Below, piece by piece: positions 27,201 through 59,330 of a DNA stretch of 64,000 nt. The position numbers were made by a program, and so were the translations under genes. The notes below the pieces were generated by a model, which was given only the letters and a program-made list of their open reading frames with translations, was not told where the DNA came from and searched no databases. Source of the DNA: Tubiluchus corallicola (taxonomy: Eukaryota > Priapulida > Priapulimorpha > Priapulimorphida > Tubiluchidae); the NCBI GenBank assembly GCA_030141605.1, contig JAQGDQ010000250.1, positions 186,001-250,000 of the forward strand, written 5' to 3'. The stretch's first letter is position 1, and each line of letters starts with the position of its first letter.

Positions 27201-30200
27201 TTTCCATGCTAAATAAATAAAAACGAGAGATTACATAATTTCTGGTTTTACATCAGTAAGTATCAATACAATTTCAAAATTAATATAGTTTTACTATTTC
27301 AACATAGAAACTGCAAATGCAGTCAGTCAGTCCAAACTGTCCAATGACAATTATATAAGTAATTTCTTGTAATGAACTTACAGCCGTCAACTCTTTTTCT
27401 AAAGCTGCTATCTGTTCATCTTTCTCCTTCAAAGCTACCTTGAGCGAACTGAGTGATTCGTGATCTCCCACCGGTCGCTCAATGTTTGTACTTCCGCTTA
27501 CTCTGCCCTCCTAAAACAGGGAAAAGACAAATTATTACTCAAAGTACAAGTTGCAACAATGTGAACAACAGAAACAGACTGTAACAATCTGAGGAACAAC
27601 AGAAACAAACTGTAACAATATGAGGAACGACAGAAACAGACTGTAACAATCTGAGGAACAACAGAAACAAACTGTAACAATATGAGGAACAACAGAAACA
27701 GACTGTAACAATCTGAGGAACAACAGAAACAGACTGTAACAATGTGAGGAACAACAGAAACAGACTGTAACAATCTGAGGAACAACAGAAACAGACTGTA
27801 ACAATATGAGGAACAACAGAAACAAACTGTTACAATATGAAGAACAACAGAAACAAACTGTAACAATGTGAGGAACAACAGAAACAAACTGTAACAATGT
27901 GAGGAACAACAGAAACAAACTGTAACAATGTGAAGAACAACAGAAACAAACTGTAACAATGTGAAGAACAACAGAAACAAACTGTAACAATGTGAGGAAC
28001 AACAGAAACAAACTGTAACAATCTGAGGAACAACAGAAACAGACTGTAACAATCTGAGGAACAACAGAAACAGACTGTAACAATCTGAGGAACAACAGAA
28101 ACAGACTGTAACAATCTGAGGAACAACAGAAACAGACTGTAACAATCTGAGGAACAACAGAAACAGACTGTAACAATCTGAGGAACAACAGAAACAGTCT
28201 GTAACAATCTGAGGAACAACAGAAACAGACTAACAATGTAACAGACTGTAACAGACATGGGAAAGTGATCACCAAATAAATGAACAACGGATAACTTGAT
28301 AAAGGAATTTTAACAGGTAATCAAACTAGCAAACCTCAACTCACCCCAAGATGGAGTTTTAGATATCAAACTGTTACGTTTATCACTCAAGAACATATAA
28401 ACCATTAGATTTATTAATTCTGGCTTAACACAGTCCAATATCTTACTAAAGAACAAGACTAAACGATCATAAAAACATTTAACGGTTTAACAGATTACAT
28501 AGCGATCAGTAAGCAGTACAAATGACAAAAAAGTGAGTCTAAAACATCAGTGAGTCTAAAACATCCAACTAAACATAATTATAGATCATATAAATAATCT
28601 ATAATAAATTATATTATTATAGATAGTCTATAATTAAATAATAGATTATATTTGACAGGAATTTATCTTAAGTGTTTTTTAGTGATGCCTCAGAGCTTTC
28701 AGTGGAAAAAACATATGAAGACCAATAACGCATAAATGCAGCAAAGGAGTATTTTAGAAGTTTCCTGTACAGAACATGTTCGTATTGGTAAAAGCTAGCT
28801 GGCCATGAACAAACAGTAACAGTCTCATTTCTCAGACCAACTGTCCAACTTTTTAACTTTTGAACCAAAATCTTGTTTACATATATATGTATATATTTAG
28901 CTACACATCGTCTCTTACATGCTGAGCCCTAATAGTGCGTAGTTCTCTCTCCATTTTGGTGCGTAGTTGTTGCTCGGTTTGTTCACGCTGCTCCGTAATC
29001 TGCTGCAAAGAACTCAGCGCCCTCTGCAACTGCTCGACACGATCGACATACATTTGCTTCTTGCGATTCTGGAAATAAAATGAAAATGGAAAAGTTTCTG
29101 AAAAATGTGTTACTTTAAATATAATAATAATAACAATAACGGTAAAAATAATAATAATAATAATTTACTCTTAAAAATGCACTCCATCAGAAGATCTCAG
29201 TGCTTTTTACATTAGAGTTAAGAGATAAAAACATACAAACAATCATAATGAAGGTAATTAGGGAGTTACAATTTAAAAAGAATATCTATGTATGACATTG
29301 AATAAGAATTCACAGTTACAATTCACAGTGAAAATAGTTAAAACAGTTATAATCTAGAATTAATAGGATTAAAATTGCATGAAAATGAAAAGAGTCATGG
29401 TTAGAAATAATAATGCAGAACTTAAAATTATTTTACTAAAATGTTTTGAACACAAATCAATGAAACAAGCATAGCCTAACACGAGTCCGCAAAATGTTCT
29501 AGAACCAACTGTTCACACCTTTTTTGAAGGAAATTACAGAATTTAAAAAACGAATCCCTTTCCGTAGAGCATTCCAGAGTTTCGGACGTAAATATATACT
29601 ATACTCCTCCATATTTTACCATATAGTAGCAACATACTGAACAAGAAAAACTACTGTTTGCTTAACCAGCAAAAAATAACGAAAAATTAATCACTTTTCT
29701 TGGCTTCCAACCCTACTATCTTTATACAAACATCAAAATGAAGAAAAAAATTTAAAGGTCTTTATGATAACATACAATTTTTAACCACTAAAAAAGATAA
29801 ATTCATAAACTCAAAGTGAATGTGATAAACTGTCATATAGTATTAAAAACAACCACTTCTAAATCGCATTTGCTATAACTTCTGGAAATAAAGTGCGTAA
29901 TAAAAAGTACCGCAAAAATTCAATAAATTCTAATAACATCAAAAATGTAAGCACAAGAAGTAACTAGTACAATAATAAGCAAAACGATAATTATTAAGTG
30001 GTACATCTGCACTGCTTATAGCCATTTCACTTGTTCTATAAACAAAATGTATCAAATCTTTAATTTCATTAACTTTTTTCCAGAAAGTTGTAGCAACTGC
30101 TATCACAAAATAGCAACAAAAATACATTACAAATTCCTGATTGTATGATTTATATCTCTGCACGCTAAGCTTGTTCAAGTAAATTCAACTTTTTTTAAAC

Positions 30201-33200: not shown

Positions 33201-35263
33201 TAAAAACTTATTATACATTTGATGGAAATTCACAGTATGCTGCCTTTCTTCAGCTAACGAACCATGTCATTGGTGCAATATACAAGTTCAATATGGAAGA
33301 GCTCGAGTATGAAATCATTGCCACTTTAAAGTGATGTCAAAATTACACAATGCTCTTATCACACTTCTATTACTTATTACTAAATGCTTTTATCATTTTT
33401 TGCAAACATTTAAATAAGCCTAACTTTTCAGAAGCATTGCCTTTCCTTTAATAACTGTTGCCAGTATCTAAGCTGCTACCAGCTAATATCAAAATAAACT
33501 AAAAAAGAATTAAAATCACCCAAGTACCTTTCAATTCCATATTCCTTTGCTTCAGTCGTCTAATTTCTGCCTCCAGCTTTAATCGGACAGTCTTCTCTAA
33601 CATCTCTCTCTTTTCTGATGAGCGTACCAAAGCTTCGTGACCCTCGTGGAGTCGCTGTATTTCTAATTCAAACTGCAAAGTACAGCAATGATAAGATTTC
33701 AAAACGCTCTGCCCTCAGATGAAATTAACCAACCCGCAAAAGAAATGTAACTGTAGGTATCTATAGATTATTACAATGGTGTCAACGGTACTAAAAACTG
33801 TACCATAGAAATAGTTTCTAAACTTTATATGGATCACCTGAATAAGTGACCATTCTACTATTTTCATGTGAAGTTGACGAACTTATGTTAATTTAAGTGC
33901 AGGAATGTTAGTTTTAGGTCACTTAAGACAGGCTACTTATCAAGTTTAAAAGGCAGTCTCCAAACTACCTGATAGCTTAAAAAAGCAACAATTGACAACT
34001 AGAGAGTATTCAGTTTATGAAAAATTTTCCCAACGTAAATCTCATGCAGTAATTACTACTAACATAATAACTTTGAATCCTTCCGCACCTTTTAAAGTTT
34101 GGTCATTTTACGATAATAGTGCTCAAACTCGCACCTTCACCTTTTGAAGTCTGGTCACTTTGTGATAACAGTGCTCAATCTTGCACCCTCACTTTTTAAA
34201 GTTTGGTCATTTTGTAATAATAATGCTCAATCTCACACCCTCAGTTTTTGAAGTTTGGTTATTTTGCGAAGTAGTGCTCAAACTCGCAACCCTTGCCTTT
34301 TGAAGTTTGGTCATTTTACGATAATAGTGCTCCATCTCACACCCTCACTTTTTGAAGTTTGGACATTTTACGATAATAGTACTCAATCTCACACCCTCAG
34401 TTTATGAAGTTTAGTTATTTTGCGAAGTAGTGCTCAAGCTCGCACCCTCACCTTTTGAAGTTTGGTTATTTTACGATAATAGTGCTCAAACTCGCACCTT
34501 CACCTTTTAAAGTTTGGCCTTTTTTCGATAATAGTACTCAAACTTGCACCTTCACCTTTTGAAGTTTGGTTATTTTGCGAAGTAGTGCTCAAACTCGCAC
34601 CCTCACCTTTTGAAATTTGGCCATTTTACGATAATAGTGCTCAATCTCACACCCTCGCTTTTTGAAGTTTGGACATTTTACGATAATAGTACTCAATCTC
34701 TCACCCTCACCTTTTGAAGTTTGGTCACTTTGCGATAGTAGTGCTCGATCTCATGCCTCAAGGAGGCATTTTCTTCCGACAACAAGTCCAACATTTTGCT
34801 CGCACGCTCTGCAAGGGCTTCTGCATTCTGCTTGGAGCCAAGTCTGCTGGATGATGATTTATCAGGGGTGACCGCTTGCCTACAATAAAACATCAAAGTT
34901 ATTTAAAGCAAAAAAAGACTAAAGATGCAATTTCACATTCAATCCTAAATTATATTATACATATGGAATATGACAACTAAAGAAAAGCTTTTACATTTCT
35001 AACAATACATTATTTTAATGTATTTACTCAGATTTAATTGTTTAGTCTTCAAGAACTAAGCACTTCAAAATAAGTGGGTCTCCTTCAAATAAATCTACAT
35101 CAAGTGTTTCTAACTATATGTTGCACTAGAAAAAAGAGCAAAGAACATTTGACATCTCCTCCCTGAACATAAACATAGCTGACAAAAGTTTATTACAATG
35201 CCAAACTGCAAAGATACACTCCAATCTACTGTAACAGTTGTTGTAATATAATGGTGGTGGTGG

Positions 35264-35307
<44 letters not shown>

Positions 35308-38300
35308 ATAATAAAGTATTTGCTTTTTCAATAATTTTTTTCAAATGCACTGCACAATTAAAATAATTTAGATAGAAGTACTAAAACCATATAATAGAAT
35401 TAGACATATCTATAAATCACAAAACTTTGCAAACACTCACCACTTACATATTAAAAACACGAGTTTTTAGTTTCCTTTTAAAAGAATTTAAATTTGTTCA
35501 TTTTCTAATTTCATTTGGCAGCTCATTCGAACATTTTGGCGCAATGCTTGAAAATTCAAATCAGCAAAGACTTTCTTTCTGTTAAAACGTACAAGTTCTA
35601 ATTCATTTGCTTTGCTAACTCGTATGCTCCTGTTATAAACACGAAACTGTAGACGATTACCCAAGTAAGCTGTAGCCAATCCATGCAATTCAATTCAATT
35701 GTAATGCTTTGCAAGTTAAAACTAATATTCTTAAATGTACACGACATCTGGCTCATAGCCAAAGATGAAAATGCAAAACACAAAGTAATGACACACTTCA
35801 GGTTTGATTGCCTATTATAGAGAAAAGCTTTAACATTTTGTTTTGCTTGACGTGTTTGAGCCATTAAACCAGACCTATAGGGACACCAAAAGGACTTTGA
35901 ATGTTTTTGCAGTTACAGAAAAAAGGAAGTAGAAAAGACAACTATAAAGGAAAAAAATTTCTCAAATTAATGAAACTCCAAATATATTCCTTGTTATGAC
36001 CAAATTATTTGACATTGCTACTAGTCCATTCCCAATGTCCATGTCAAGCACAAGAAAACTCAATGTTTCACCCAGACTTGATTACTGCATTCAAATAGTA
36101 TCACTTTTTACAACATCTTCAGTTGGATTACGCAAATAAGGGGTAAGCACATTGTCCTCATGCTGTCCCACCAGGTAAATCACAAATAGACTAACCAGTC
36201 ATGAGTGACATTTACATAATCTACATATATCATATCCTGTTTAATCCCAGGAAAGAGTGGCTAATACGGAAAGCCTGCAGGAAGTCTAAACTATGCTGAA
36301 CAGGATAAAGTGGCAAAAATACATTCAGAAGACACCAATGGTGACTAAGGAGTAAGTCGTACACAGAAGTGATGCCTGCAGAACATTGTACATGTTGCTG
36401 ACCAAGAGTTGGTCGTGAGTACTGTTCAATGTACAGGTGAAAACTGCACTGTAGAATAAAAAAGTGGTCTCATCTAAAAGTGAATCCACATTGGATACTA
36501 GTTTATTTTGTGTAGGTCTGTATTGTACATACAATCATTCTACCTGTTTGTGTTCCAAATCTAATGAAATAAATTCATAAATTTTTGGTGATAGATGTGG
36601 AATTGTGAATGGAATAGACCCAGCACTTAGAGGACTCAAAGTGACATACGCCTCACCAGCATGTTGTGGGACATAGCTGCAACTACCTCGATTGCAAAAA
36701 TAGGAAATTAGAGACTTAAAATGAAATAAAAATTGTATGTAATTGTTATTGCAAGTAAAATACAAAAGTAATAAAAGGTATGAAATGTATAGCCTAACAG
36801 TGAATTTGTGAATGATAGGTTAAACGCTATCATGCATTTATCACGAATAGTTATGATAGGGTAAGATCGTCACATAAGCATATTTATATCAATTTCTATG
36901 GCAGATGGTCAAACTGATCGAATTTTTTTACTACAACTAATTTTTATGCAAAAATAAACTTGGACATTGATTATAGCTTAATTCAGTGCATTAGATAACT
37001 TGCGAGATATCAGTAATGTAAACATGGTAGCTGACATGATTTGTTTAATTTAGAATGAGGTTGTCGCGGATGGACCATGGACAGACGTTTGTGATTGTGA
37101 TGGTATATGCACTATTTTCAGGTAGAGCATCGTGCTATTTTACTTGTAAAACTTTTTAATACAGTTGACATGTGCTTTATAAACTGTGCTCTTCTAATTA
37201 CTTTGTTTGCACTTGCCAGTTGTCATACAATAATATAAAAGTTGATGACAAACTTGACAGCTAAAAAACCTAGCTTTCCTAAAAAACAACTTTCCAAACA
37301 AAGTTGTATTAATTAGCATTATGCTTACCTGCCTGAAAGACTTATGAAACAAGAAAAGAAAATTCTTAATAATTTAAGTGTTCGCATCAACTGTTAAAAC
37401 GTCACTGACTCACCTTCCCAGTGTGCACCACTGAGTTATTTTTAATCTTATTGACAAGATAGAGTACGCTACGCATGTTCTGATTATCTCCTAAAACTCT
37501 ATTCAATTTTATCTAAACTTGTTTCAAATGACTTACCGGCAAAATGGCTGCGCCTCACTTAAAATTTTCAAGTTTTAAGCAGCGTTACTGCTAATACTAG
37601 CTCTGTGTGCAATAAGGCAGTATGTAAGTGATCTTGTGCTTTAACAAGAAATCAATGGTGCAAGTACACTTAATTTTACCATCTTTCAGCTTGTATATCC
37701 AAAAGCAATGCAGCAGAATGCCACAACGAAATATCCTGCGATGAAGGATGGATTATATTAGTAAAGCGAGCCGTCTATGCACCAGTACTGCATGATGGCA
37801 ATGTGTGTGGTACAATAAGTCGTGAAATTGTAAATGGTGCAACTATGGATGTGACAAGACAGTGGGCAAATCGATGCACTGGCCGACAAACTTGCACTCA
37901 GTTTAATAATAATCACACGCAACCACTAGCAGTTCAACTAGATGTCATATGTATAGAAGGTAACGCATCATTTGCACATAATCAGATAGCCATTTGTTTA
38001 ATATTAATCAAATATCTCATGACCATGGGGTTGCAAATTCTCATTTTGTATAGGATGGAATATAGGAGTCCATGACCTGATACATGGCAACACCATATCT
38101 ATTTAAAACAAACATGTGACAGCATTTAGCTTGCCTTCCATAAATTTAATATTAGGCTATAGATTCAGTATGTCCATTGTTCGTAACGGCAATGTTTACG
38201 TAATTTCATCAATTGACATGTTTTTGCATACATTAGAAACAGCAAAGTCTTAGGTTAACACAGAAAACACTCAAAAAGCCTCTCTCCGGTAAGACAAACA

Positions 38301-41300
38301 ATTTCCAAAAACTTGCGTATGGTTTTGACAATTTATTTTCACCTACTTTTCGCATTTCCAGTAATTTTTATACAGAACTCGTAATAATTCAATAGACTTT
38401 TGTTTAATAAACTCTTATATTTTACAACTGCTTGCAGACACTAAAAGGCATAAAAACAATTATTTTATGATTTTATATTGCAGCTATTTCCATTCAAGAC
38501 TTATGTGAAACGCCAGCTGGGAGAAACTACCACTACGTATCGTCTCCTAGTTTGCTAAATAAACAAACGAATCATACAAAATGTAGCATCAACATCACTC
38601 CCAAAAGCGATGCAATTGTGACAATTTATATTGAGTACTTAAACTTTGGTGCCTTTGGAGAAAAAACAGTGACTATTGCTAATGACGCAAAGCAGGTAAC
38701 ACTAGGTGGAAGGACGCACACTGTGTTGCCATCAACAAACAGAGTTCTAACAGGTGAATTTGGAACACCTGTTAATGTCAAATTAGAGAGAACAGCGAGA
38801 GCTGAGCAAACAGCAGGATTCTTGGCCTCTTTTACGGGTAAGATGCTGCAAGAATGTATAAATATATATGTACGTAAAGCATCGTAGAACCTGCATGTAA
38901 ACTGTAGGGAATTTCACAAAGTATCTTGTTGGCCACATTACCATGGTCACTCACCTGTGCATATCTGTCTCTACCTGGGCAAGCGAGTTAGTTGGTAGAC
39001 GTTCACAGGCTTCTTTAAAAGCAGTTTTTCACAGTATGACAGTGATATAATTTGTCAGATATATCGGTAAATACTAGATTTGCTTTATGGAGACATATGA
39101 TGTAAGTAAATACATCATTTTTATATTATTTTGAATCATTATGAACTGATCACTTTGAATATTTTAGTTTAATGAATGACAATCTTATCAATTTGATAGA
39201 ACGTCGTATAAATTAGTAAATTACCAAATTAGGTTTATTTACAGCATGATTTTGTGTTTAGTAAAGTTTAGAACTGCAGAATTAATTATGCAAAAATAGG
39301 CAAATCATTACAGATTATAAATAAGTTTATTAGACTGATTGAGTGCAGTTAATTTGTCGTTTTAACTTAATATAAAGTGGATTAATTTGACTATCGAACT
39401 ATACTTATTGCAGCCTTCAGTTAAATGCAAATTTGTAAAATGGCCTTTTTATTTTTTAATAGAACTGACGTATAAAACACTACAAATATTGAGTTGGATT
39501 ATGGCAGCCATTGAATGTAGACATAAATATTTATCTACGTCTGATTTGTGAACAAATGTTTCCATTTCAGAGGGGGCAGTTTACAAATGTGAAGCCAGTC
39601 CAACAAGCCAATCACCAATAAAGGAGATAGAAGCACAACACGGACACTTGCAGTCGCCTGACTACCCAAACTATGGCTCAAGGACCATGGAGGAAAACTA
39701 CAGCTGCAACTGGACAATAACAGTAAATGCTGCTCAGACAATTGAACTTTATTTTAACGTTTTTGAACTTGACGGCAGCAAAAATGCAGACGAATGCTTG
39801 GACTTTGTCCAGATAACAGAAAAAAGGTACAATGCTTTATTTTCTTGTAAATATTACATACCAGTAACAAATATAATACTAACTTTTCACATACTTACGC
39901 GGATACATTTATTTTATTAACTAATGATAAATTGATGAACTACTTTAAATTCAAACTACAAATTATTTGAAACCATTTTTGCATGTAATATGAAGTCATT
40001 TGCATAGGTTACTTGAAACGTAAATATATAAAAAAGTCACTAATTGCCTTAAATATCCTCCAATGAAATAAGATCAAGAATTTTTGTGAACTGATAATGC
40101 TGGCATACAGGTATGCATACATGGAAATCTTTTTTCTGATACAGTACAGATCAAACAAGTCAAATATATAAAGACTGCGGGCAGCAGAATGGTCACACCA
40201 TTCAGTCCACATCCAACAAGGTAACTGTAGTGCTCAAAAGTCGGAGATCCAGTAACACAGCAATATGGATTATTTACAGAGGTACAAATCACACGATCAG
40301 TTTTAAAACGCTTCTATCTGAAAGTCTGGTAAATGTAGCCTTGAAACCAATGGGCTATAGTGATCTACTAGTTAGAATAATGTGCTTGTACACATGCCAG
40401 AAAAACCTTAGTTCAAATCCAGAGTCAGCTTTCACTTTTTTAGGTTTCCTGCTTTCAAAAATTCAATAGTTGGGTCCATCATTAACTGATACGTGTAGTT
40501 GAAATTCAAAAATGTTGTTGGATTAAAAATCATTATGAAGCAACCATTTTTTAAACAATGACAGAATTCCTTCTTTTAGCATGGCCACCAGAGCATGCCT
40601 TACAAGTATTAGAAGACAGCACTACACAGTCCTTCTCACCCATCATGGCTCCCGGTGAGATTCGTCCAGGCTGGACAACTGTCACACCACCACTAGATGT
40701 GGAAACAACGACATCATCTTGGGTGAACCAGTTACTAAATCCAAATGGTAATGATACTGTATGTTTATTTACTCCTCCTTGTTTCTTTTCTGAGGCTTAT
40801 GTGGGGTTTCGAAAAATGTGGTTTGTCAGTTTCGGATCAAAATCACTGTAGATATATACCACATAATCTTGGCAGATATAGCAAGAGTGTACAGACTACA
40901 ATAACCATTTTAAACATAGATTAATATGCACAATTAATTTGTATGATAGGTTACACATGCCGTATCTATGTTTCTGTTATGCATACAGGATAAAAACTAG
41001 CTATAACTTTTCAACTGAGTAATGCTTTTTAAAAGCTTTACTTTGTTTTTTTAGGTACCTTTGTGCCAGACATGTGCGAGTTACCAGTTCTTGTTATTGC
41101 AGTTAGCAGTGCAATGGGTGCTTTTATACTATCAACATTTATTTGTTGTCTTTGTTGTAGGTAATGTATTCAGTTTTTGACTTACAAAATCTACTGAGTT
41201 AAAAATACTGCACTGTAGACCTAGGTCTACTCAGGAGAAACATCTGCCCCTATAAACAAACAATTGTCAGTGGAAAATGAGCACCTAAACATTTTTATTT

Positions 41301-44300
41301 GGCTAACATCATCTGTGCCAACTACCACATGTACTTTGAACAATCTGTCAGACCTAATTATTTGTAGCTTAAGTAATTAGAAACGTGATATTTGCACCTG
41401 GATAAAGAATCATTAAGCAAAAGTCTGACGAAAGGCACTCCCCTTAAGGCTTAATAAGAATGAAACTTTTTACACATAATTATGAAAGTCTCACCCATAG
41501 TTCATAGACTGCACAAACTGCTTTAGTTTGGCTCACCATATATAACTTTTTGTCATGTATTCTCCAACAGAAGAACAACAAAAGCAAAAACCTTTGTTGT
41601 GTTTGAAATTTTATTCACATAACTTTTTTGTTTGCAATTTGCAGACTGGTGAAACGATCAGTGAAAAGAAAACAACAGAAGATTGAAAAGCGTGCACAGG
41701 AGCTCTCCCGCCTCCAGCGCACCAGCCGGGCAAGCAGCGAAAATAACCAGACAACACAGCGTCCCAAAAAGCCGGCCTCCGCTAAACACATTTCGCACAA
41801 CTTCACCCATGCGGTGAACAGAATGAGTAGGTTTGTGACGGGGGTAGATGCTATTGACGAGGACAGTGAGTTTGATGACGAAGAATATGACCTAACACAA
41901 GCCGCCTCTAGCGCAACTGTAATGAGTGACACAGATAGATACGTAACAACGGCATCAACCAAACGTCGCACGGAGGAACCGCATTTCTACGGAAACCTCC
42001 AACAGCCGGACCAGGAGCAGTATGAAGTTATGACAGCGCCAGAACCTCAGTATGCTAACATAGGCATTCATAGGAACTATGCAAGATAAACGAGAATGCG
42101 AAAGACACAAAGAATCCTAGTAATATAAAAACTGTAAATACAAACATGGACACTCAGTACTGTACTAATAATTCAATGTCATGTTTTTATGTATTGTCAT
42201 GGTATTTAGGACTGCGAAATATACATGTCTAATAATTTTAGTGCATATTTGTGCTGTTTTTACAATAGGAACCTTTTGTTCTTAAGTACTTATTTGTTAA
42301 TTATTATGTGTAAATTTGTATCAGGAAACTTGTGTACCTGACACAATTGTGCACATCAACTGACATTTTTAAAACAGTATATTTTGTCAGCTAGTTTACA
42401 TTTTATTTTTAAAAACACCTTTGTGTTGATAGCTTGAGCAAACTTTAAAAAACTCTTAGGACAGCAGATATGCGCACAGTGCACATAAACAAAAAGCACT
42501 TTTTTTGTTTTGCACCGAAAGGCAGCATAGTTAAAGGAAAAATAATTGGACGACCCTGCATAAAAGATTAGGTCGTCAAACATTTGAAACAATTATAAAA
42601 CCAAGACTTCATATTTTCAACTTTCTTTCACGTTTCTCAATTGCCTAAGAGATAAAACCATAAACCAAAGATATATGAACATCCTCGATGCAATAAACTG
42701 CTTTAAATAGTACCCTTATCTATTTTTGATAAAAACGGTGGTTGAAAGCGCTTAAAGTGAGACACTAAAACATATCATACATTGCTTTGAAATGATGTTC
42801 AAGAGTCAGATACATCTGGTGTTGTTTCGCACATATATGCAGTGTGAGCAACATGATATTACTGATTACATTTTCTTCTCGGCTACATAAATCATGGCCA
42901 CTTTTTTACTACACAACGAAAACAAATTTTAGAATTCCAAAGCCGGCTTCTTTTGCCACTAAGCAGACAGCGCAAACCCATCCAGAGCCTCGCGTTTAAG
43001 TCGGCATGCACCAGTTCAAGGCTTGGAATTTTGGAATGCAAAAAAGGCCCAGAAACAGTCTGTAGTTAATGATGCTTAATGTAGACAGTGGTGCTGATGC
43101 GGCTGCACTCTAGATAAACAGCCAGTGAGAAGCAAATTAACGGTGGTTGCCTAGCAAGTTGAAACTAACTGAACTGCACATACCGTTCATTTTAACAAAC
43201 TTATCCACCCAAAATAACAAATAAAACAAGCAGTTTAGCTAATTAAAACAAACAACAAGTTAACCGAGGTACTTAAACTAAAAAAAACAATACCACAAGG
43301 TTTGCAAGAACTGGAGAAAACTGATAATCGTACTATGATATTAGACAAATGTAAAAAGTTGACTAAGAACAGCTAAAATCAAATCAAATACTGAATTCCA
43401 TGCAACCACGTGTCATATTTTGAATCTTTTTCTTTTCTCGATTGAGGTCACATTTGCTCAGCCAAACATGTCATGCAGGTATGCTTGTTAAAGCTGCCGT
43501 ACTTTATATATTTAAAAACCCTCAGTCAGACAGTGTTACATCAATCAGACATTGTCATGTTAATTAGCAAGTCGAAAATGGTACTGACAAGCCACAGGCA
43601 TGGCAGTGATTAGTTTTTTCTGGGTTAACTGTTACCTGTCAAGAGGACAGACTTATTTTAGAACTCTATCTGCCCAATGTCTATAATAAACGTAATGAGA
43701 GTATGATGGTAACGAGATGACTTAGTTAATCAGATGCTGAATCAGTCAAGTATCACCATCAGACAGACGTAGTCACATTAGTTAGACATATTGTTACATC
43801 AGTCAGACATTGTCATATCAAAAACTATTAGGTCAGTCAGACGTTGTTACATCAGTCAGACATTGTTACAGTAGTCAGACATTACCATATCAGTCAAAAA
43901 CTATTAGGTCAGTCAGACATTGTCATATCAGTCAAAAACTATTAGGTCAGTCAGACATTGTCATATCAAAAACTATTAGGTCAGTCAGACGTTGTTACAT
44001 CAGTCAGACATTGTTACATTAGTCAGACATTACCATATCAGTCAAAAACTATTACGTCAGTCAGACATTGTTACATCAGTCAGACATTGTCATATCAGTC
44101 AAAAACTGTTACATCAGTCAGACATTGTCATATCAGTCAAAAACTATTAGTCAATCAAACATTGCTACATCAGTCAGACATTGTCATATCAGTCAAAAAC
44201 TATTAGGTCAGTCAGACATTGTCATATCAAAAACTATTAGGTCAGTCAGACGTTTGTCAGTCAGACATTGTTACATTAGTCAGACATTACCATATCAGTC

Positions 44301-47300
44301 AAAAACTATTACGTCAGTCAGACATTGTCATATCAGTCAAAAACTATTAGGTCAGTCAGATGTTGTTACATCAGTCAGACATTGTTACATCAGTCAGACA
44401 TTGTTACATTAGTCAGACATTACCATATTAGTCAAAAACTATTAGGTCAGTCAGACATTGTCATATCGGTCAAAAACTATTAGGTCAGTCAGGCATTGTT
44501 ATATTAAAAACTATTAAGTTAGTCAGACATTGTTACATTAGTCAGACATTACCATATCAGTAAAAAACTATTAGGTCAGTCAGACATTGTAATGTCAGTC
44601 AAAAACTATTAGGTCAGTCAGACATTGCCACATCAGTCAGACATTATTAGGTCAGTCAGACATTGTAATGTCAGTCAAAAACTATTAGGTCAGTCAGACA
44701 TTGCCACATCAGTCAGACTTCACATTACAGACAAATGTTGATCAATAAATTAGTGTAGATAGCCGTCTATTCTACACAATAATTACCGCATCCGATATAC
44801 TTACATGGAAAAACCAATATCAGTATCTAAACAGCGCAAATAGGTGTATTCACACATGTACAGACGTGACTCAAAAAAAACAACTAATCCTTGTCCAGAT
44901 TCAAAAAACTAGGAAGTTCTTTTCATGTTTACTAATTGTTTAGCCTTACTTAGAGTCAAATTTATGGTAAATCTAATTGAAAAACTCCATAAAAATACAT
45001 ATACAGTACACACATACAGTACATGTATGAATTGCAAAGTGTCTGCGAACAATAATGGTTATCAGTAACCATTTTATTAATCTGAAAATTACTAAGGCAG
45101 TCTGGTGTTTTTATAGAATAGTCACACAGCTGTTTTTACTTTGCTTTTAAATTAATAATTGCAACATTTAAGTTTGAATTTTGTATGTGCACAGCAGTCA
45201 GCAAAAAGGCAAAGTGACAAAGATTGTTTGTCTACACTAGAAAAATGTAAAATTAGAGTAAAAAAATCACTTGCGTGGTAAAACAATTAACAGAAGCTAA
45301 CTTTCGACTTCTTTGCACAAATTGAATTCACACACTGCAGTATGCCAAGAGAAAAAGCCATAAGGTTAGCTCTAAAAAATTACGTTTGTTTCTGATTTGT
45401 TGTCATTTTGCACTATGGGTAGCTGCTAGGTAGGGATTTTCATTTTTTTTATTTTTTGTCGCGTGACTACTTTGAAACGAATTAACTGACTTTTGACTAG
45501 ATCATTAAACCTTACTTTGATGAGTTCTTCACTTTTTTACACTTGTCTAAAAATGTCATTTTTATGAAAGAAAGATACCAATTCAATTTTAACTAATTAA
45601 CGAAAGATAAATACGCTTCTGCATACTTGATTTTTCATTTTAAATGACAAAGAATGTAACGGCATATGAATGTGTAACTGTAAGCACTAGTACTGGCCAG
45701 ATAGATCATAAGAAGAGGTATCACTCAAGTAGTTTCAGCAATTACTGTCCAAGCTACTCTCAGGACCAGACCATTTATGCTTACAGTATGGTTGAATATT
45801 AGTGTGTCCTGGCTAAAATATCAAGAAATTTCTTAATGTTACTATTAATATTAAATTTTATACTACAGTTTTAGTCTACTGAATGTAGCTGTACTATAAA
45901 CAGACAAATTAAAAACAGTTTTTGCATTGCATAAGTTTTGAATCAGTTTCTTGTGTCCATTACCTCAACATGTTCTGACGTTATTAGACGTTGGTTATCA
46001 GGTTAATTAAAAAGTCCTAAATATAAACTGTGCCAAGTTCTGAACTCAATGAAATTAAATGCTATGAGAGACTCACTTTTACTTTTACAGAAATTCAGAA
46101 TTTCTACATTTAACCAATAGTTAACTCTTTTTTGACACAGTTAGCCCAGATAAGGACAAACATTTGCATTAGTATTTACAGCTGAATTTGTCATGAATAA
46201 TTACTACTGGATTGTTTCATCGTGAGTCACACTGCCCAGGCTGCAGCAGTGTCTGATAGCTGTAGCAGTATACCTATCAAGTTTGCTTGATACCACTCAC
46301 GAGCGACTGCTGGTCATTTTGTTTGCATAATAGAAGCAGCTGGATAAAACGTGAATCAGTTAATGATTGATAGGCAAATAAAAAAATTTAATTTGATAAA
46401 TGCAAAAAGTAAATCGAATTGCACAATGCAAAAAATAAAATGGTGCAGTCAGTCGGCAACCGGAAACAAATACGATTTTTGTCGGCCCTATTAGTTTCTC
46501 AAATGAGTAATACAAAAACATTAAATATGAGAGGCAGCCTAAAATAGAAATTTGGTACCTGTCAGTCTGGGCAGTTCCTGCAGTTGCCATGTCTTCCTTA
46601 CTTCCACCAGCAGGAGTGGTCTCCTTTACACCGGAGGTTATTTGATGCTCATCAGTAGGGAACGGGTATTCAGGGGGTGGGGGAAGTTCAGTAAAGTGGT
46701 CTTCAGTATATTTTAGTCTAGAATGTCCTAACGAACTGTGGTACGGCGGCAAATAAAATGTGTCACTGGGTAATGTACTAACACCGTAATATGGCGGCAC
46801 CTTTAGATGTTCTTGAGAACCAGAATCACAACCCGTAGCGCTACCGTAGTGCGGAAATTTTAAGATATCTTGAGATTCACTACTAAATGTCACAGTATCA
46901 CCATATAACGGTAGCCTCAAGTGTTCCTGAGAGCCACCACTTGGCATCACAGAACTGGTATATAAACCAGGTTTTAAATGTTCCAGTGATCCACTAACAG
47001 ACTGCGCTACATTCGTACCATATAGTGGCGGCTTCAACTGTTCTTGTGATCCACCACTAGGGGATATGGTGGAACCGGGTGACACTGACGGCACTGGTAC
47101 ACTTTGCACTTTGGTACCAGACGTCAAATGCTGCACAACCTTTGCTTGTTCTGGTGATGCACTACCCTTATAAGCACCTCTTGAGGAGTAACTCGGTGGC
47201 TTTCGCCCTTCCGTAACATCACCAGTTCCCTTAGGATCGGCCATGTTAGCGTAATAATCTAGCGATGGAACGCGCTCGTCGATGGTTGAAAGATTCGGAT

Positions 47301-48260
47301 TTGAAAGTTTTGAGTCAAAGTGAAATCCGAGTCGTGATAGAATGCTGCTGTCATCTAAGCTGAAATCATATTTCTGCTGCTCTTGACCTTGTGGCTCTTG
47401 TCGAGTTGAATGACGCAGCACATGCTTCTCCTCGCTGGTCAAGTTCTCTGTGGACGAAGTCGATTCACTTCCTGAATAACTCTGACGATATCCTACGTAC
47501 AAATAAATGTGAGATAACGTGCTTTCAATGTGTAAATAAGAACAGTAATCAAGTTGTCCTGTCTCTTGAACAAATTCCCAAACAAGTAGTAAAGAAAATA
47601 GCTGAGTTGAACATGCTTAGTTGGTCAGAAAATGGATAGGTTACCACTTTTGCTTTTGAGTAGCTTCAACTAATAACCTAGCTATTTCTTTCAATGAACT
47701 GGGACACCTTTGCTAGTTCACATGCCTCATTTTGTATGGTTATCGTTAATAACGAGATAGATTCTGGTCCTGCCACAATCCTCTACTTAAGCAGCACTGC
47801 CACCGAGTGGTGGATTACGGCTTGCAGTCAGCTGAACTGTATTAAAAAAGTTTATCTCTGCACTAAACTACAAAAAAATCAGGAAATTAATCAAATTAGT
47901 TCCATCGCGCAAAAAATATCTTATAATAATAAGTTTATTAATCATCATTACATCCAAAAGACTGAATTACAGTACAGCATCAATTACAATATAAAAATTT
48001 TTAAAAAGAATAAGGTAGAACGTACAGTGACAAGCAGTACTACACTGTTACAAGATACATGAACAAAATAAATTAAAATTAAATGAGTCAGAACTTAAGT
48101 TTGGCATAGTGTAACACCAATCAGCATTATCAAGACCTTTACCAGAATGGACATGTTCATTTTTAGCCCAAACCTAACTGATAATACCTGGTTGCAGAAG
48201 GTGTCTATGGCTGGCTGCTGCACTGGCAGGACTCTGTTGTGAACCTTGCATATTCAGCAT
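21164..48260 (-). CDS. AMOT: Angiomotin (motin) family protein, 13 coding exons, 849 aa
   Basis: A scaffold of tight and apical junctions. Motins bind YAP/Yorkie and other WW proteins through PPxY motifs and restrain Hippo-pathway output; they also bind actin and PDZ proteins. Exons: 48188-48260, 46559-47492, 34711-34879, 33528-33672, 32155-32274, 30335-30480, 28919-29068, 27382-27510, 26894-26961, 25755-25889, 24382-24641, 22604-22758, 21164-21229. All have AG/GT borders and matching phases, and the sum is 2550 bases. Residues ~25-335 are disordered, with four PPxY motifs, three of them in or beside a tandem array. Residues ~336-730 are coiled coil with motin hallmarks, for example EKREMLEKTVRLKLEAEIRR and WEQKFTEESAIRQLAIDAA. 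Residues ~731-780 contain EKEAMVKVLQKH. The C-terminus is YWRV, a plausible class II PDZ ligand. Human AMOT p130 is longer, at about 1080 aa. Alternative start: Met4, which has a better context. The large second intron hosts another gene. Confidence 0.9.
21305..21610. mobile_element. Degenerate inverted-repeat element
   Basis: The left end carries CCTCGTTATAATGGATTT, and the right end read in reverse carries CTCGGCGTTATAGTGGATT. Several ATAATGGA-like phrases lie inside. It looks like an old MITE in the 12th intron, with no clean target duplication visible. Confidence 0.4.
22604..22758 (-). CDS. AMOT: Angiomotin exon 12
   Basis: 155 bases, phase 1 in and phase 0 out. A Ser/Thr/Pro-rich linker (LPSADLPSPSPLHTLTSSVS and following), low in conservation. 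It is called because splice sites and phases fit on both sides. A MITE lies 60 bases upstream of its acceptor. Confidence 0.75.
22818..23317. mobile_element. TA-flanked MITE with 23-bp inverted repeats
   Basis: The element runs 22,820-23,315 (496 bases). The left end starts CCGTATATACTCGCATATAA and the right end is its perfect reverse complement over 23 bases. Both sides are flanked by TA. The phrase GTCGGCTTATA recurs internally at about 22,881, 23,217 and 23,272. The dinucleotide duplication suggests the Tc1/mariner/pogo group. No transposase. Confidence 0.85.
24382..24641 (-). CDS. AMOT: Angiomotin exon 11
   Basis: 260 bases, phase 2 in and phase 1 out. It begins MQEYKTKLAEKEAMVKVLQK, which matches the motin block around EKDAMIKVLQQ. 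It then becomes Ser/His-rich and disordered. Confidence 0.9.
24768..25370. mobile_element. piggyBac-type MITE (TTAA target)
   Basis: The element runs 24,772-25,366 (595 bases). It starts CCCTTTCACTAC and ends GTAGTGAAAGGG, flanked on both sides by TTAA. A CCC terminus with TTAA duplication is diagnostic of piggyBac. There are GGCAG/CTGCCGCC subterminal inverted motifs near the left end and no transposase frame. Confidence 0.92.
25755..25889 (-). CDS. AMOT: Angiomotin exon 10
   Basis: 135 bases, phase 2 on both sides. It encodes DAKIAALEKTSKECEKLLAI and then a segment ending QRKYTALEAK. Coiled coil. Confidence 0.85.
26894..26961 (-). CDS. AMOT: Angiomotin exon 9
   Basis: 68 bases, phase 0 in and phase 2 out. 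It encodes WEQKFTEESAIRQLAIDAAS, an unmistakable motin signature. Confidence 0.92.
27382..27510 (-). CDS. AMOT: Angiomotin exon 8
   Basis: 129 bases, phase 0 on both sides. It ends ALKEKDEQIAALEKELTA, equivalent to the motin LREKEERILALEADMTK segment. The 31-bp minisatellite begins about 40 bases upstream of its acceptor. Confidence 0.88.
27552..28254. repeat. 31-bp minisatellite, ~22 copies
   Basis: Tandem units built on CTGTAACAATCTGAGGAACA plus ACAGAAACAGA. Variants alternate G/A in CAGACT or CAAACT and C/A/G in ATCTGAG, ATATGAG or ATGTGAG. Because 31 is not a multiple of 3 and the unit lacks stops on the minus strand, three overlapping frames of 142-250 codons appear; they are artefacts. 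It lies inside angiomotin intron 7. Confidence 0.95.
28919..29068 (-). CDS. AMOT: Angiomotin exon 7
   Basis: 150 bases, 50 codons, phase 0 on both sides. It encodes NRKKQMYVDRVEQLQRALSS, then QQITEQREQTEQQLRTKMER. Coiled coil, matching the motin segment with VDKVEKMQQAL. Confidence 0.9.
29120..29640 (-). mobile_element. LINE 3' end (CR1/L2-like), 5'-truncated
   Basis: Minus-strand translation near 29,588-29,502 gives RPKLWNALRKGIRFLNSVIS then FKKGVNSWF. This is the conserved tail of CR1/L2/Jockey-type reverse transcriptases (LWNSLP..IR....SFK..L). A 3' UTR follows with AAAAAGCACTGAGATC, and an (ATT)n tail at about 29,122-29,172. It lies in angiomotin intron 6, in the sense orientation. Confidence 0.65.
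30335..30480 (-). CDS. AMOT: Angiomotin exon 6
   Basis: 146 bases, phase 1 in and phase 0 out. It encodes ELAAQRATLSEQRTHIDILD and then a stretch ending NVARLEEE. This is a conserved motin segment. Confidence 0.88.
30545..30790. other. GC-rich island in an angiomotin intron
   Basis: Much more GC-rich than its surroundings, with a poly-G run near 30,653. No coding signature recognised; possibly a foreign repeat. Confidence 0.4.
32155..32274 (-). CDS. AMOT: Angiomotin exon 5
   Basis: 120 bases, phase 1 in and out. It encodes QLDVATAQLSKRQAHEIDDS and then ELRKELSKRDTIIAQLITQ. Coiled coil. Confidence 0.85.
33528..33672 (-). CDS. AMOT: Angiomotin exon 4
   Basis: 145 bases, phase 0 in and phase 1 out. 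It encodes FELEIQRLHEGHEALVRSSE and then KREMLEKTVRLKLEAEIRRL, the most diagnostic motin coiled-coil block. Confidence 0.92.
34086..34710. repeat. 52-bp minisatellite derived from the exon 3 splice donor
   Basis: Twelve tandem units of about 49-52 bases. The thirteenth, bordering unit is the real end of angiomotin exon 3 (34,711-34,750). Each unit on the minus strand carries a copy of the exon end (CACTATTATCGTAAAATGAC then CAAACTTCAAAAG) followed by the first intron bases GTGAGGGTGAGA or variants. Most copies keep GT after AAAAG; four have GC or CT instead. Confidence 0.92.
34711..34879 (-). CDS. AMOT: Angiomotin exon 3: start of coiled coil
   Basis: 169 bases, phase 2 in and phase 0 out. 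It encodes ALAERASKMLDLLSEENASL and then RHEIEHYYRKVTKLQK, which matches the motin coiled-coil start. Its 3' end, with the splice donor, is the seed of the minisatellite at 34,086-34,710. Confidence 0.88.
35262..35870 (-). mobile_element. LINE 3' end (CR1/L2-like), 5'-truncated
   Basis: Minus-strand translation, with frameshifts, gives APKCSNELPNEIRK, a stop, then TNLNSFKRKLKTRVFNM. This is the CR1/L2-type reverse-transcriptase C-terminus. The 3' UTR contains GTGCAGTGCATTTGAAAAAA and the tail is an (AAT/ATT)n run at about 35,262-35,315. Sense orientation within angiomotin intron 2. Confidence 0.65.
36325..36700 (-). other. Unassigned open blocks, possible exon or pseudogene
   Basis: On the minus strand, after TTGCAG at about 36,672, an open block encodes YVPQHAGEAYVTLSPLSAGS and on to EFISLDLEHKQ, then a GTAGAATG donor-like site. 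A second open block follows at 36,325-36,534. Adding the first block to angiomotin would break the frame into exon 3 (133 bases, phase 2 to 0). No family recognised. Confidence 0.3.
37055..37121 (+). CDS. Receptor exon 1: signal peptide
   Basis: MRLSRMDHGQTFVIVMVYAL then FS; hydrophobic core TFVIVMVYALFS. Phase 1 donor G|GTAGAG. Confidence 0.7.
37055..42089 (+). CDS. SUEL-lectin/CUB type I membrane receptor, 8 exons, 600 aa
   Basis: Exons: 37055-37121, 37690-37959, 38484-38837, 39571-39826, 40145-40281, 40580-40747, 41055-41160, 41645-42089. All are GT-AG with consistent phases, and the sum is 1803 bases. Residues 1-22 are a signal peptide. Residues ~23-112 are a SUEL (rhamnose-binding) lectin-like domain with seven Cys, including SCDEGWIILVKRAVYAP and RCTGRQTC. 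Residues ~113-230 are a CUB-like domain. Residues ~245-361 are a CUB domain (LQSPDYPNYGS, CNWTI, ECLDFVQI, DCG). A Thr-rich linker follows, then a membrane span at ~427-450 ending CCLCCR. The 148-residue tail has a basic juxtamembrane part, an acidic patch, and YGNL (Y568), YEVM (Y579) and YANI (Y589), which resemble Grb2 (YxN) and PI3K (YxxM) SH2 sites. Likely a cell-surface carbohydrate- or protein-binding receptor; the ligand is unknown. The whole gene lies inside an intron of the opposite-strand angiomotin gene. The start codon has A at -3. Confidence 0.85.
37340..37640. repeat. Dispersed repeat, copy 2
   Basis: Shares ordered blocks with about 3120-3730, namely CCCAGTGTGCACCACTGA, ATCTTATTGACAAGATAG and TCAAGTTTT. 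It sits in the first intron of the nested receptor. Confidence 0.6.
37690..37959 (+). CDS. Receptor exon 2: SUEL lectin domain
   Basis: Phase 1 to 1, a whole-domain cassette. Cysteines occur in ACIS, ECHN, SCDEG, VCGT, RCTG, QTCTQ and VICIE, spaced as in galactose/rhamnose-binding lectin domains. The family's usual DPC-x-G-x-x-K loop is replaced by NNNHTQPLAVQL. Confidence 0.85.
38484..38837 (+). CDS. Receptor exon 3: CUB-like domain
   Basis: Phase 1 to 1. Starts DLCETPAGRNYHYVSSPSLL and ends AGFLASFTG. The strand pattern and the GF.A.F ending resemble CUB, but only two Cys remain, so the call is CUB-like. Confidence 0.7.
39571..39826 (+). CDS. Receptor exon 4: CUB domain, first part
   Basis: Contains GHLQSPDYPNYGSRTMEENY, SCNWTITV and ADECLDFVQI, which are canonical CUB motifs. 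Phase 1 in, phase 2 out. Confidence 0.88.
40145..40281 (+). CDS. Receptor exon 5: CUB domain, second part
   Basis: Contains YKDCGQQNGHTIQSTSNKVT and ends NTAIWIIYRG, the second half of the CUB fold. Phase 2 in, phase 1 out. Confidence 0.85.
40350..40466 (+). mobile_element. tRNA-derived SINE, family copy 2
   Basis: A-box-like GGGCTATAGTGATCTA, B box GTTCAAATCC, then CAGCTTTCACTTTTTTAGG and TTTCCTGCTTTCAA. It matches the copy at 12,485-12,600 through both head and body. It lies in an intron of the receptor gene. Confidence 0.6.
40580..40747 (+). CDS. Receptor exon 6: extracellular linker
   Basis: Phase 1 to 1; Ser/Thr/Pro-rich (TTVTPPLDVETTTSSW). No domain recognised; probably a stalk. Confidence 0.75.
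41055..41160 (+). CDS. Receptor exon 7: transmembrane helix
   Basis: LPVLVIAVSSAMGAFILSTF then ICCLCCR. One hydrophobic span followed by a Cys cluster that could be palmitoylated. Phase 1 in, phase 2 out. Confidence 0.85.
41645..42089 (+). CDS. Receptor exon 8: cytoplasmic tail
   Basis: Begins LVKRSVKRKQQKIEKRAQEL (basic, stop-transfer side). Then come an acidic run DEDSEFDDEE, and tyrosine motifs EEYDL, FYGNL, QYEVM and QYANI, ending NYAR and TAA. Confidence 0.85.
42692..42697 (+). terminator. Candidate poly(A) signal of the receptor gene
   Basis: AATAAA about 600 bases beyond the stop codon. Usage is inferred. Confidence 0.4.
43745..44725. repeat. CAGT-rich satellite with a two-part unit
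   Basis: Irregular alternation of two modules: CATCAGTCAGACATTGTTA (19 bases) and CATATCAGTCAAAAACTATT plus AGGT. Related degenerate copies begin near 43,520. It lies in angiomotin intron 2. The Ser/Gln/Tyr frames across it are artefacts. Confidence 0.9.
44726..46558. other. Angiomotin intron 2, no further feature
   Basis: AT-rich intronic sequence between the satellite and exon 2. Nothing recognised on either strand. Confidence 0.4.
46559..47492 (-). CDS. AMOT: Angiomotin exon 2: PPxY-rich N-terminal region
   Basis: 934 bases, phase 1 in and phase 2 out; donor AG|GTACCAAA, acceptor TTTGTACGTAG. It encodes PPSY (residues 123-126), PPLY (179-182), PPYY (257-260) and PPEY (297-300). Between residues ~169 and 260 are five units of 19-20 residues built on GSQEHLKPPLYG. 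Three of these units have lost one proline (PGLY, LPLY, FPHY). The region is rich in Ser, Pro and Gly and is predicted disordered. Confidence 0.85.
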
Positions 48261-56230: not shown

Positions 56231-58108
56231 TTATACTTTCTTGCGTTTCCACGGAGGAAGATGTTCATCGTCATCATCATCATCTTTTTCATCTTCTTTA
56301 TGAAAAATTGGCTTCGGTTGAGTCTTTGTCCAGACACCCGTCCACATGGGGTTTTCAGCAGCATCTTTGGCATGTCGTATAATGGCCTCCCTGGGATCAA
56401 GGGAATCATCCTCTATAGGTCTTTCCAATGCGTGCATTTTAGAAATGTAAGCTGCTAATGTGCCACCAGAACTACCTAATCGGCCGCCCATGCCAGGACC
56501 TGCAACCGGGAGCTCTGGTCTGCGAGACTTCACTGGATCAGCCCTAGCCTTCTCTTTGACCTTCTTCGTGGATTTCTCTTTCTCTGTTCTAAACATGGGT
56601 AGCGCATGAGGAGTAATAATGGGCTCCTTCGCAAGATACTGAATCTGTTTTGTCTTTCTTTCATTTTTGACAACAGACAGCAAAGCACCACGATGACTCT
56701 TGTCGGGATCATAGAAGATCTTCGCCTGTCCATCGGCAGTTCCAACGATGATCTGATTGAGTTTTGGATGCCACAAGCATCTAATTATACTTGCCTCGGT
56801 GGAAACATCCATTTCATAATCTTTCACAAATGTATCTCGACTGTAGAACATTAATTTCCCACTCCCTTCACCTTTTTTCACCGAGGTGCCGGTGATGACC
56901 ATTTTGTCATTTGGACTAAAGATGCAGTCAGTCATGGGAAAGAAGTTTGTGAGATCATTCACAACATATAATGGTGTTTTCATGTGCCTCAGATCCCAGA
57001 GTTTCAGAGTATCATCGCCTCCACGAGATGCTAGAGCTTTCCCATCATATGAAAAGCAAATACAAGATGTTTCACTGCCTGCTTGATGAGCACCTCTGCA
57101 AACAATAGCAGTATTCACAAAGTTCTTACGATGGTCCCACATTTGGATAGATCCATCTACACAAGCAGCAGACACCAAGTTGCCATCCGGACTATAGCAA
57201 CATGTCGATGGAACTGTTGGAAGACCAGTTTTTGACCTCGGCTTAATTATGTTTTTATGCTTCTTTCCTTCTTGTTGCAAACTCCATAAGCGCACAGAAG
57301 TGTCAATCGAACAGGTCATAAACTCGTCTCTGTCTCGCGGATGCCAACACCCACAATTCAACATTCCACAGTGACCTTTCGTATTAGCCATGTCTCTTAT
57401 GTACTGATCCCCTTTAGCACACTCCATTTTTTCGAAACCATCCCTATCAATGACCTTCGCTTGTGCATTTCCGCTTGCAATGAGAATACAATCACCAGTA
57501 ATGCTATACTGCAGAGATTTGATCTGATGACTTTCACAAGGTCGTAGTGTCCGGAACGAGTGAAGCGATGCGTCCATACCAGCAAAGTCCCACAACTTCA
57601 CATCATAATCATAACTACCCGTAGCTAAACGTGCTCCATTGGGGTCTAAGGTCAGAGCAGACAACGAACGCGATCCATGGTCCAAGATGATTTCGTGGCT
57701 AATTGGCAACATGTTTTCAACACTAGCATCATTTTCATCCGACTCTCCTTCATCTGGATTATCTGCCACAGTCGCTGAACGTTGTCCATCTTTACTCTGA
57801 ATGATGTCATCATTATTATCAACTATTTTACTAGGTGGCACAGGAGGTCCTATAAAGTCGTCTTCGCTAGAATCATCGTTGTCATCAGAATCTTTACATG
57901 AGCTAGATGGTGAGGAACTATTGTCAGTAGGTCTAGAGGACTTTCCTTCAGGCTTCTTGATATTCTGCTTACTTGACATTGGTTCTTCTTCTAACTCTCT
58001 TTCAGCTAAAACCTTCTGTGATCTTTCCATAGCTGCAAGCTTTGCCTGCTGAAACACGACATCCAAATCAAACATCCTCGCTTTTTTCTCCATCTTTTCG
58101 TCAGCCAT
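56231..58108 (-). CDS. WDR70: WDR70 family WD40 protein, intronless, 625 aa
   Basis: A nuclear WD-repeat protein. WDR70 (also called gastrulation-defective protein 1 homologue) has been described as a CUL4-DDB1 substrate receptor linked to histone H2B ubiquitylation. The N-terminus starts MADEKMEKKARMFDLDVVFQ. An acidic Ser-rich segment follows with SSEDDFIGPPVPP (~residues 80-92), a hallmark of the family. WD40 repeats span ~135-490, with clear units at ATGSYDYDVKLWDFAG, MTCSIDTSVRLWSL, VSAACVDGSIQMWDH and ASRGGDDTLKLWDLRH. The conserved C-terminal signature follows: DPREAIIRHAKDAAENPMW then TKTQPKPIF. A DDDDDDE run and a basic WKRKKV end, probably nuclear-targeting, finish it. The length is near the family norm of about 650. 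I chose the ATG at 58,108 because it has A at -3 and G at +4. An in-frame ATG at 58,156 adds 16 residues but has a poor context. The frame is intact in a single exon. Confidence 0.95.
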   Translation of the reverse strand: MADEKMEKKARMFDLDVVFQQAKLAAMERSQKVLAERELEEEPMSSKQNIKKPEGKSSRPTDNSSSPSSSCKDSDDNDDSSEDDFIGPPVPPSKIVDNNDDIIQSKDGQRSATVADNPDEGESDENDASVENMLPISHEIILDHGSRSLSALTLDPNGARLATGSYDYDVKLWDFAGMDASLHSFRTLRPCESHQIKSLQYSITGDCILIASGNAQAKVIDRDGFEKMECAKGDQYIRDMANTKGHCGMLNCGCWHPRDRDEFMTCSIDTSVRLWSLQQEGKKHKNIIKPRSKTGLPTVPSTCCYSPDGNLVSAACVDGSIQMWDHRKNFVNTAIVCRGAHQAGSETSCICFSYDGKALASRGGDDTLKLWDLRHMKTPLYVVNDLTNFFPMTDCIFSPNDKMVITGTSVKKGEGSGKLMFYSRDTFVKDYEMDVSTEASIIRCLWHPKLNQIIVGTADGQAKIFYDPDKSHRGALLSVVKNERKTKQIQYLAKEPIITPHALPMFRTEKEKSTKKVKEKARADPVKSRRPELPVAGPGMGGRLGSSGGTLAAYISKMHALERPIEDDSLDPREAIIRHAKDAAENPMWTGVWTKTQPKPIFHKEDEKDDDDDDEHLPPWKRKKV

Positions 58109-58156
58109 GTTTAAAGTCTCGATCGAATTAGTGGATATAACAAAACTTTTTAACAT

Positions 58157-59330
58157 AAAAAATTAAATTATTGAACTAAATCAACAAAACGTGAAAAATG
58201 AGATTGAGTATTTTTTCAACCACGTGCAATTCATTGGCACTTTCACTGGGTTTCACGTCAGCAAGTGGACAAGTTAAATCATGTGCACGTGCTAATAATG
58301 TCTCACACTAAAATCGGGAAACTCTAGCTCCGTTAATCGTCGTTCGTTCTTAAATTCACATCGTGAAATGCGTGACTGCGGCGATCCTTTATAGTGGAGA
58401 AAATCTTTCCTGAAAATAAATGCTAATCAAGTATATTCACGTTTAGTATTCCACAACACAACAAAATAATAAAAATATAATAATCGAACATAAAAATATG
58501 ACAAATGAATGAAAATAAATATTTCCATCTCTATGTTTAACTATAGTAAATGTAGAATGTAGATAGTCTTGCACTTTGTTCAATACAGTACAGTTCATTA
58601 CAATCGAATCACAGTAACACAATTTTCGAGGGGCCAAAATAATTTTTCGTATTAAGCGTGATTCGCACCATCCGTTAATTAGCAATTAACCCACGTGTAG
58701 CCTCTACATCCATTTTCGTTTGATCAGTGAGCATAATTTAAGCTTCTCTGATCGCCCATTTTCCACACGTACAAACAGGAAAATTATATCATCACGTTGC
58801 CAGTCAGTCTAGAAGCAAATCCGCAAGTAAGGGGTTAGCGACACCACTTTTGCTGCTGCAGTATACCGATAAATACTGCTAATGCATTACCTGTAATGCA
58901 ATACTAAATGCCCAACAACGCTGTTCATTTGGATACGAGGCTGCAGCAAATACATGTATAGGCATTTTAAACTATAAGGGCTGAATTTTTATCACAGTGG
59001 CAAGGCATTTTAGAAATCAGCAACTTTACTGCAGGCAGTTATTTGTACAATCATTTCAATGATCAATTTAAATTATAACTTATTTTAAACCTAAAAATCT
59101 GTTCTCGCTTTATTCCAGGTGTTTCAGCTGTTGCCACTGATACTATTCGTGTTAAATATGTGGAAAAATCAATCGCTTATCGGTCTACGGTGATTATCTT
59201 TGCAGCCCTTTCCAATTTCCCTGACTTTTCAACCCATTTTCATCATTTTCCTTGACTTCTTACCAAATTATCTTTTTCCCCGACTTTCCAGTATAGCCTG
59301 TATTTTCAAGGATGTTCCCTGACCGTGGGA
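58157..59330. other. Upstream region of WDR70; MITE fragment at its end
   Basis: It should contain the WDR70 promoter; no TATA box is obvious. At 59,210-59,336 the phrases TTCCCTGACTTTTC and TTCCCTGACCGTGGGAACCC recur, ending CCTG. This resembles one end of a CAGGGTTCCCAC-type hAT MITE; I did not find the other end or a target duplication. Confidence 0.45.

Follow-up and report, generated by a model that had tools for sequence, protein, structure and literature searches.

A minisatellite copying an exon end and its splice donor in an angiomotin gene of the priapulid Tubiluchus corallicola

The repeats closest to the one described here have been found in amphioxus, where the original Adh paper reportedly dates from 2002, and in the human gene IFI6 (6-16, G1P3), for which Turri et al. 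are said to have described in 1995 a minisatellite giving multiple splice donors. The IFI6 units are short (12 bp) and carry a donor consensus, and use of a unit keeps the reading frame. In amphioxus, minisatellites made of tandem copies of an exon-intron boundary, named “mirages”, are presented in the consulted sections of two papers for Adh3 and the globin genes BflGb6 and BflGb9 (PMC3087553), with further cases in TnC and PGBD5 (PMC3902484). According to these sections, the units measure 10-72 bp in Adh3 and 150-160 bp in the globins, BflGb6 units share 81-100% identity, and splicing of the genes was reported as regular (PMC3087553, PMC3902484). For IFI6, the consulted part of a paper citing Turri et al. 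1995 states that two downstream repeat units serve as donors (PMC4526556). Two related phenomena appear in excerpts of other work: intron gain via tandem duplication of AGGT segments (Rogers 1989, Hellsten 2011 and potato RdRp; PMC4974935), and internal tandem repeats at exon-intron boundaries of human paralogs, which can alter splicing (PMC2812944). The kind of repeat reported here has thus already been published for amphioxus, of which an earlier note on this DNA was unaware.

The window analysed here, to which all coordinates refer unless stated otherwise, is a stretch of 64,000 nt of the T. corallicola assembly. Its minus strand carries an angiomotin gene, as had been proposed: the hand-joined exons match the Pfam family Angiomotin_C (PF12240) with an E-value of 2.9e-18, scoring 66.6 bits where the cut-off is 23.5, and the individual exons, searched singly, score under the cut-off. 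The match covers residues 200-370 of the joined protein, outside residues 1-56, which are encoded by the exon adjoining the array (34,879-34,711, minus strand; exon 3 in the earlier note). This exon was assigned from its translation, the match of the joined exons and the continuation of its frame into the next exon; alone, it gave weak, sub-cut-off Pfam matches to other coiled-coil families, with bZIP_1 at the top, and a search of solved structures returned a single weak match, to 14-3-3 (E 0.042). It ends in ...KLQK (EIEHYYRKVTKLQK) in phase 0, and is separated by an intron of 1038 nt from the next exon (33,672-33,528, minus strand; FELEIQRLHEGHEALVRSS...), which forms a phase 0 junction with the true donor. 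A putative N-terminal angiomotin exon at 46,360-47,616 contains six [LP]PxY motifs, one of them inside LPPPPEY, and showed no match in Pfam. Plus-strand open frames at 37,674-42,089, resembling lectin- and CUB-type domains by eye, sit in an apparent long angiomotin intron and may represent a nested gene on the opposite strand. An uninterrupted open frame of 643 aa on the minus strand at 56,231-58,162 resembles, by eye, a WD40-repeat protein of the WDR70 type.

Tandem Repeats Finder (TRF) placed the array at 34,086-34,752, with a period of 52 bp and 12.9 copies, which agrees with the extent and unit length originally given, and also reported a 155-bp period with 4.2 copies at 34,086-34,746. The first TRF copy is the exon itself; it is followed without a gap, from intron base 1, by the twelve units that had been counted beside the real junction (34,710-34,089, minus strand). 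From TRF and alignment, each unit consists of about 10 nt of intron start and 42 nt of exon end, so that the make-up proposed earlier stands, with lengths that differ from the ~12 and ~40 nt first suggested. As in a mirage, the boundary is therefore copied in tandem units, and the array directly continues the real boundary. Ten units are 52 nt long and two are 51 nt; U9 (52 nt) has one gain and one loss, which cancel each other. Together the units occupy 622 nt, or 60% of the intron. A three-unit order was weakly significant (permutation p 0.011), as would be expected had the array grown in part by blocks of 155 bp. The assembly of 343.5 Mb contained at least one match to the array, at its own locus, a lower bound since the search skips very common words. 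A search of the assembly for COX1, aimed at the phylum through the mitochondrial code, gave no match. Relatives were found neither by pattern nor by protein in viral_contigs, nor by protein in genome_contigs (viruses, bacteria, archaea). A coding repeat was considered and ruled out by the stops and frame breaks in the units. RNA folding of the array was no better than that of 20 shuffles (z 0.43), and AATAAA and ATTAAA, as signals for premature 3' ends, are absent from the whole 1038-nt intron.

Aligned to the exon end (34,752-34,711, minus strand), a check that the earlier note had itself proposed, the array consensus agrees at 38 of 42 positions, and single units share 76.2-90.5% with the final 42 nt of the exon. 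The top match of the consensus in the rest of the window reaches 26/42 on the plus and 25/42 on the minus strand, and 20 shuffled consensus sequences gave 24-27. A similarity no better than chance, named in that note as an outcome that would speak against its proposal, was thereby ruled out. Over the 42 nt, mean identity is 84.3% between exon and units and 84.0% among units, and at 41 of the 42 columns one or more units share the exon letter, which is missing from all twelve at the remaining one. Since exon letters recur in the units, the exon is as near to the units as these are among themselves, and the rest of the window holds no similar sequence, there is good sequence support for an origin of the array from the exon-intron junction.

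That the exon was the source and the units are the copies is what we infer from its frame, which enters from upstream and runs into the next exon, while stops and indels occur in the units. Of the nine units that can be compared codon by codon, the three gapped ones being left out, three have a stop codon in the old reading frame. The differences between the exon and these nine units comprise 24 synonymous changes, 26 amino-acid changes and three stop codons, and variants inside the array number 21, 8 and 22 at codon positions 1, 2 and 3, fewest at the second. In our judgement, the exon-unit differences are richer in synonymous changes than free drift would lead one to expect. This excess and the second-position deficit count against the explanation that we prefer (see below); shared ancestry of the units could account for both. 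Because the units share changes by descent, no rate was drawn from these counts. The 10 nt at the head of the unit showed chance-level similarity (P 0.27) to the exon sequence that precedes the 42 nt, and the breakpoint of the original duplication is blurred; a 5-nt microhomology, TGAGG, is suggestive only. A tree of exon and units had poor resolution and placed the exon beside U10 (0.744), which is not taken as the birth order of the units.

Donor strength was scored in bits over nine positions with a simple hand-typed donor matrix, and U1 pairing energy was used as a second measure. The true donor D0, CAAAAG/GTGAGGGT (34,716-34,703, minus strand, as all donors here; junction 34711/34710), scores 12.2 bits, a value reached or exceeded by six of 1622 minus-strand GT sites at 24,000-47,600. 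Two copied donors are among these six: D2 (34,612-34,597) and D5 (34,457-34,442), both CAAAAG/GTGAGGGTGC, lie 104 and 259 nt downstream of D0 and equal its 12.2 bits. The nearest copied junction, D1 (34,664-34,649; CAAAAA/GCGAGGGTGT), is a degraded GC site of 2.3 bits, a single observation that proves nothing, and the last, D12 (34,094-34,079; TAAAAG/GTGCGGAAGG), scores 9.8 bits; the sequence past D12 is probably the original intron start. Among the remaining copies, the GT sites score 8.0 (D7 and D10) or 7.5 bits (D3, D4 and D11), the other GC site, D8, scores 5.7 and the CT sites D6 and D9 score -2.0 bits. As originally described, eight of the twelve copies have GT and the others GC (two) or CT (two); AAAAG/GT, which had been credited to all eight, is found in six, and the other two read AAAAA/GT. 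Splice signals are thus kept in many copies and lost from others, as in mirages, and the row of decoy 5' splice sites previously proposed is real as sequence, with 7.5-12.2 bits for the eight GT copies.

Six further donors of the angiomotin gene, from exons set by hand, score 4.3-7.1 bits. U1 pairing gives -10.1 kcal/mol for D0, D2 and D5, -5.1 to -5.7 for D7, D10 and D12, and -4.3 to -5.6 for the other donors of the gene, so that the statement that all eight GT copies are stronger than those donors is true by the matrix but not by U1 pairing. Columns of the donor site carry 1.56 minor states on average, compared to 1.21 in the other columns (permutation P 0.32); being as variable as the rest, they show neither upkeep nor removal of decoys. 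As a control, the other arrays of the contig were inspected, and repeated donor-like sites of at least 6 bits were present in at least five of twelve. Because such sites recur, the presence of GT within a unit is not special by itself; what is special here is that the array adjoins a real donor and copies it at 12.2 bits. A second donor, GTGAGG/GTGAGA (34,710-34,699; junction 34705/34704), which had been missed earlier, lies within the sequence of the real donor, in frame and 6 nt past D0, and scores 9.5 bits.

The survey covered 260 kb of the contig (GC 35.1%) and yielded 13 arrays of 120 bp or longer; among the seven whose surroundings were read, an exon-end copy was shown for the angiomotin array only. 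A 31-bp array with 21.6 copies (27,563-28,231) lies in the same gene and ends 52 nt before the acceptor of a different exon (first base 27,510); its minus-strand units contain the acceptor-like ...TCTGTTGTTCCTCAG and TTACAG, with 32 such sites under a loose filter, and the array showed no match to that neighbouring exon. A 19/76-bp array of about 960 bp (43,757-44,718) lies in an apparently long intron between the putative N-terminal exon and the exon at 34,879-34,711, and has strong matches only to itself and to a short piece at 43,522. A 74-bp array with 6.6 copies at contig positions 161,935-162,425 (L018 1935-2425), five units of which carry CCCC/GTAAGTTG, resembled a second mirage, but no adjoining exon could be demonstrated. 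A 35-bp array (L010 5473-5679) lies roughly 100 nt beyond an exon resembling monoamine oxidase by eye, and no exon-end copy was seen in it.

All twelve copied junctions lie beyond one shared in-frame stop: reading on past D0 gives VRVRD and a stop that ends 18 nt into the intron, close to the ~20 bases at which added codons had been predicted to run into termination. For D2 to D12, this stop is located at least 86 nt before the new junction. In vertebrates, a stop lying 50-55 nt or more upstream of a junction leads to message decay, and under that rule the use of D2 to D12 would call for decay. Use of the site 6 nt downstream of D0 would add Val-Arg in frame; no other alternative donor among those examined would keep the frame open.

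The explanation that we regard as probable is that of a boundary-spanning minisatellite, a mirage, in which the multiplied junction is mostly tolerated and D0 is still used. A duplication spanning the junction would have copied the final 42 nt of the exon together with roughly the first 10 nt of the intron. From the homology, unit number, divergence and weak three-unit order observed, we infer that slippage or unequal exchange expanded the copy to twelve units, partly via three-unit blocks of 155 bp, after which the units drifted. The original intron start would thereby have moved to the far end of the array, so that the donor used today would be the exon-proximal one, its intron side made by the array. 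The spliceosome most likely uses D0 nearly always, because it comes first, its score is unsurpassed and, apart from the +6 site, it alone leaves the frame open. The array would then be intronic DNA that is tolerated, and now and then a mis-splice to one of the downstream copies would yield a truncated, decay-prone message. Against this explanation, D2 and D5 match D0 in score, the proposed use of D0 is deduced from its frame and score, the breakpoint is blurred, and the priority of the exon over the array depends on its coding status, with the Angiomotin_C match lying outside this exon. The degrees of confidence expressed for this and the following explanations are not mutually exclusive.

With regard to origin, we give almost no credence to a similarity arisen by chance or to an array that is an artefact of assembly. 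Donor-like GT sites do recur in other arrays of the contig, but the agreement of consensus and exon end lies far above the best chance values, and units that differ by 16% on average over 42 nt are unlike assembly stutter. The reverse direction, in which the exon end was built from the array as an exonised repeat, seems hardly credible: it is consistent with exon and units being equally far apart, but the coding frame crosses the matching part from upstream and continues in phase 0 to the next exon, and the array units carry stops and indels. On the origin of the repeat the earlier note was right, and its suggestion that the array tunes splicing is unproven.

Such tuning would mean that some transcripts take decoy donors, adding VRVRD and a stop, with copy number setting their share; the outcome would be a fall in angiomotin through nonsense-mediated decay, or a short protein in which the N-terminal PPxY motifs are retained and most of the coiled coil is lost. 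This is compatible with an origin by junction duplication, and it gains from the matrix scores of the GT decoys relative to the other donors of the gene, from the stop-to-junction distance for D2 to D12, from the [LP]PxY motifs of the putative N-terminal exon, from the use of downstream repeat units as donors in human IFI6 (PMC4526556, in part) and from a C. elegans minisatellite that an excerpt describes as over-represented near alternative splicing regions (PMC4039745). We nevertheless consider it unlikely, as U1 pairing of D7, D10 and D12 is no stronger than that of the other donors, neither conservation nor depletion is seen in the donor columns, the nearest copy is degraded, and amphioxus arrays were reported, in the sections consulted, without splicing disturbance (PMC3087553, PMC3902484). 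An extension, in which a hypervariable number of decoys, each leading to the one fixed stop, sets angiomotin dosage and thereby Hippo-pathway output as a poison-donor minisatellite, appears more doubtful still. We find it very improbable that the array aids the true donor, its repeated U1 sites and the GGG present in most units acting as intronic enhancers that keep U1 close to the exon end: nine of the 12 GGG sites of the intron fall within the array, and D2 and D5 are strong U1 matches, but the donor columns show no constraint, and help for D0 seems unneeded because it ranks in the top six of 1622 GT sites.

Read as a mirage, the array is a clear example of a splice junction giving rise to a minisatellite and, since lancelet genomes are larger and closer to 41% GC, probably one outside the lancelets, which would widen the range of mirages. 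Junction-born minisatellites bear on intron lengthening and on the possible birth of new introns. The array is also a natural test of spliceosome choice among near-identical donors within 622 nt, in which D2 and D5 equal the true site at all nine scored positions and the main difference is place.

The angiomotin array is the same as the amphioxus mirages, in the sections consulted, in that a boundary was copied in tandem and splice signals persist in many, not all, copies. It differs in its host gene, in its setting in a 343.5 Mb assembly and in its twelve units, compared to three and six in two BflGb6 haplotypes (from a partial account of that gene). Like IFI6, it offers donors in minisatellite units, here predicted from sequence; unlike IFI6, whose mRNAs encode isoforms, all twelve copies would lead to VRVRD and a stop, and none keeps the frame. 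With AGGT-mediated intron gain it shares a tandem duplication over splice signals, but no new intron is seen: the copies remain in an existing intron, and donors alone were copied. Finally, unlike the repeats of human paralogs, which belong to recent segmental duplications, the angiomotin array is diverged, with at least one match in its own assembly.
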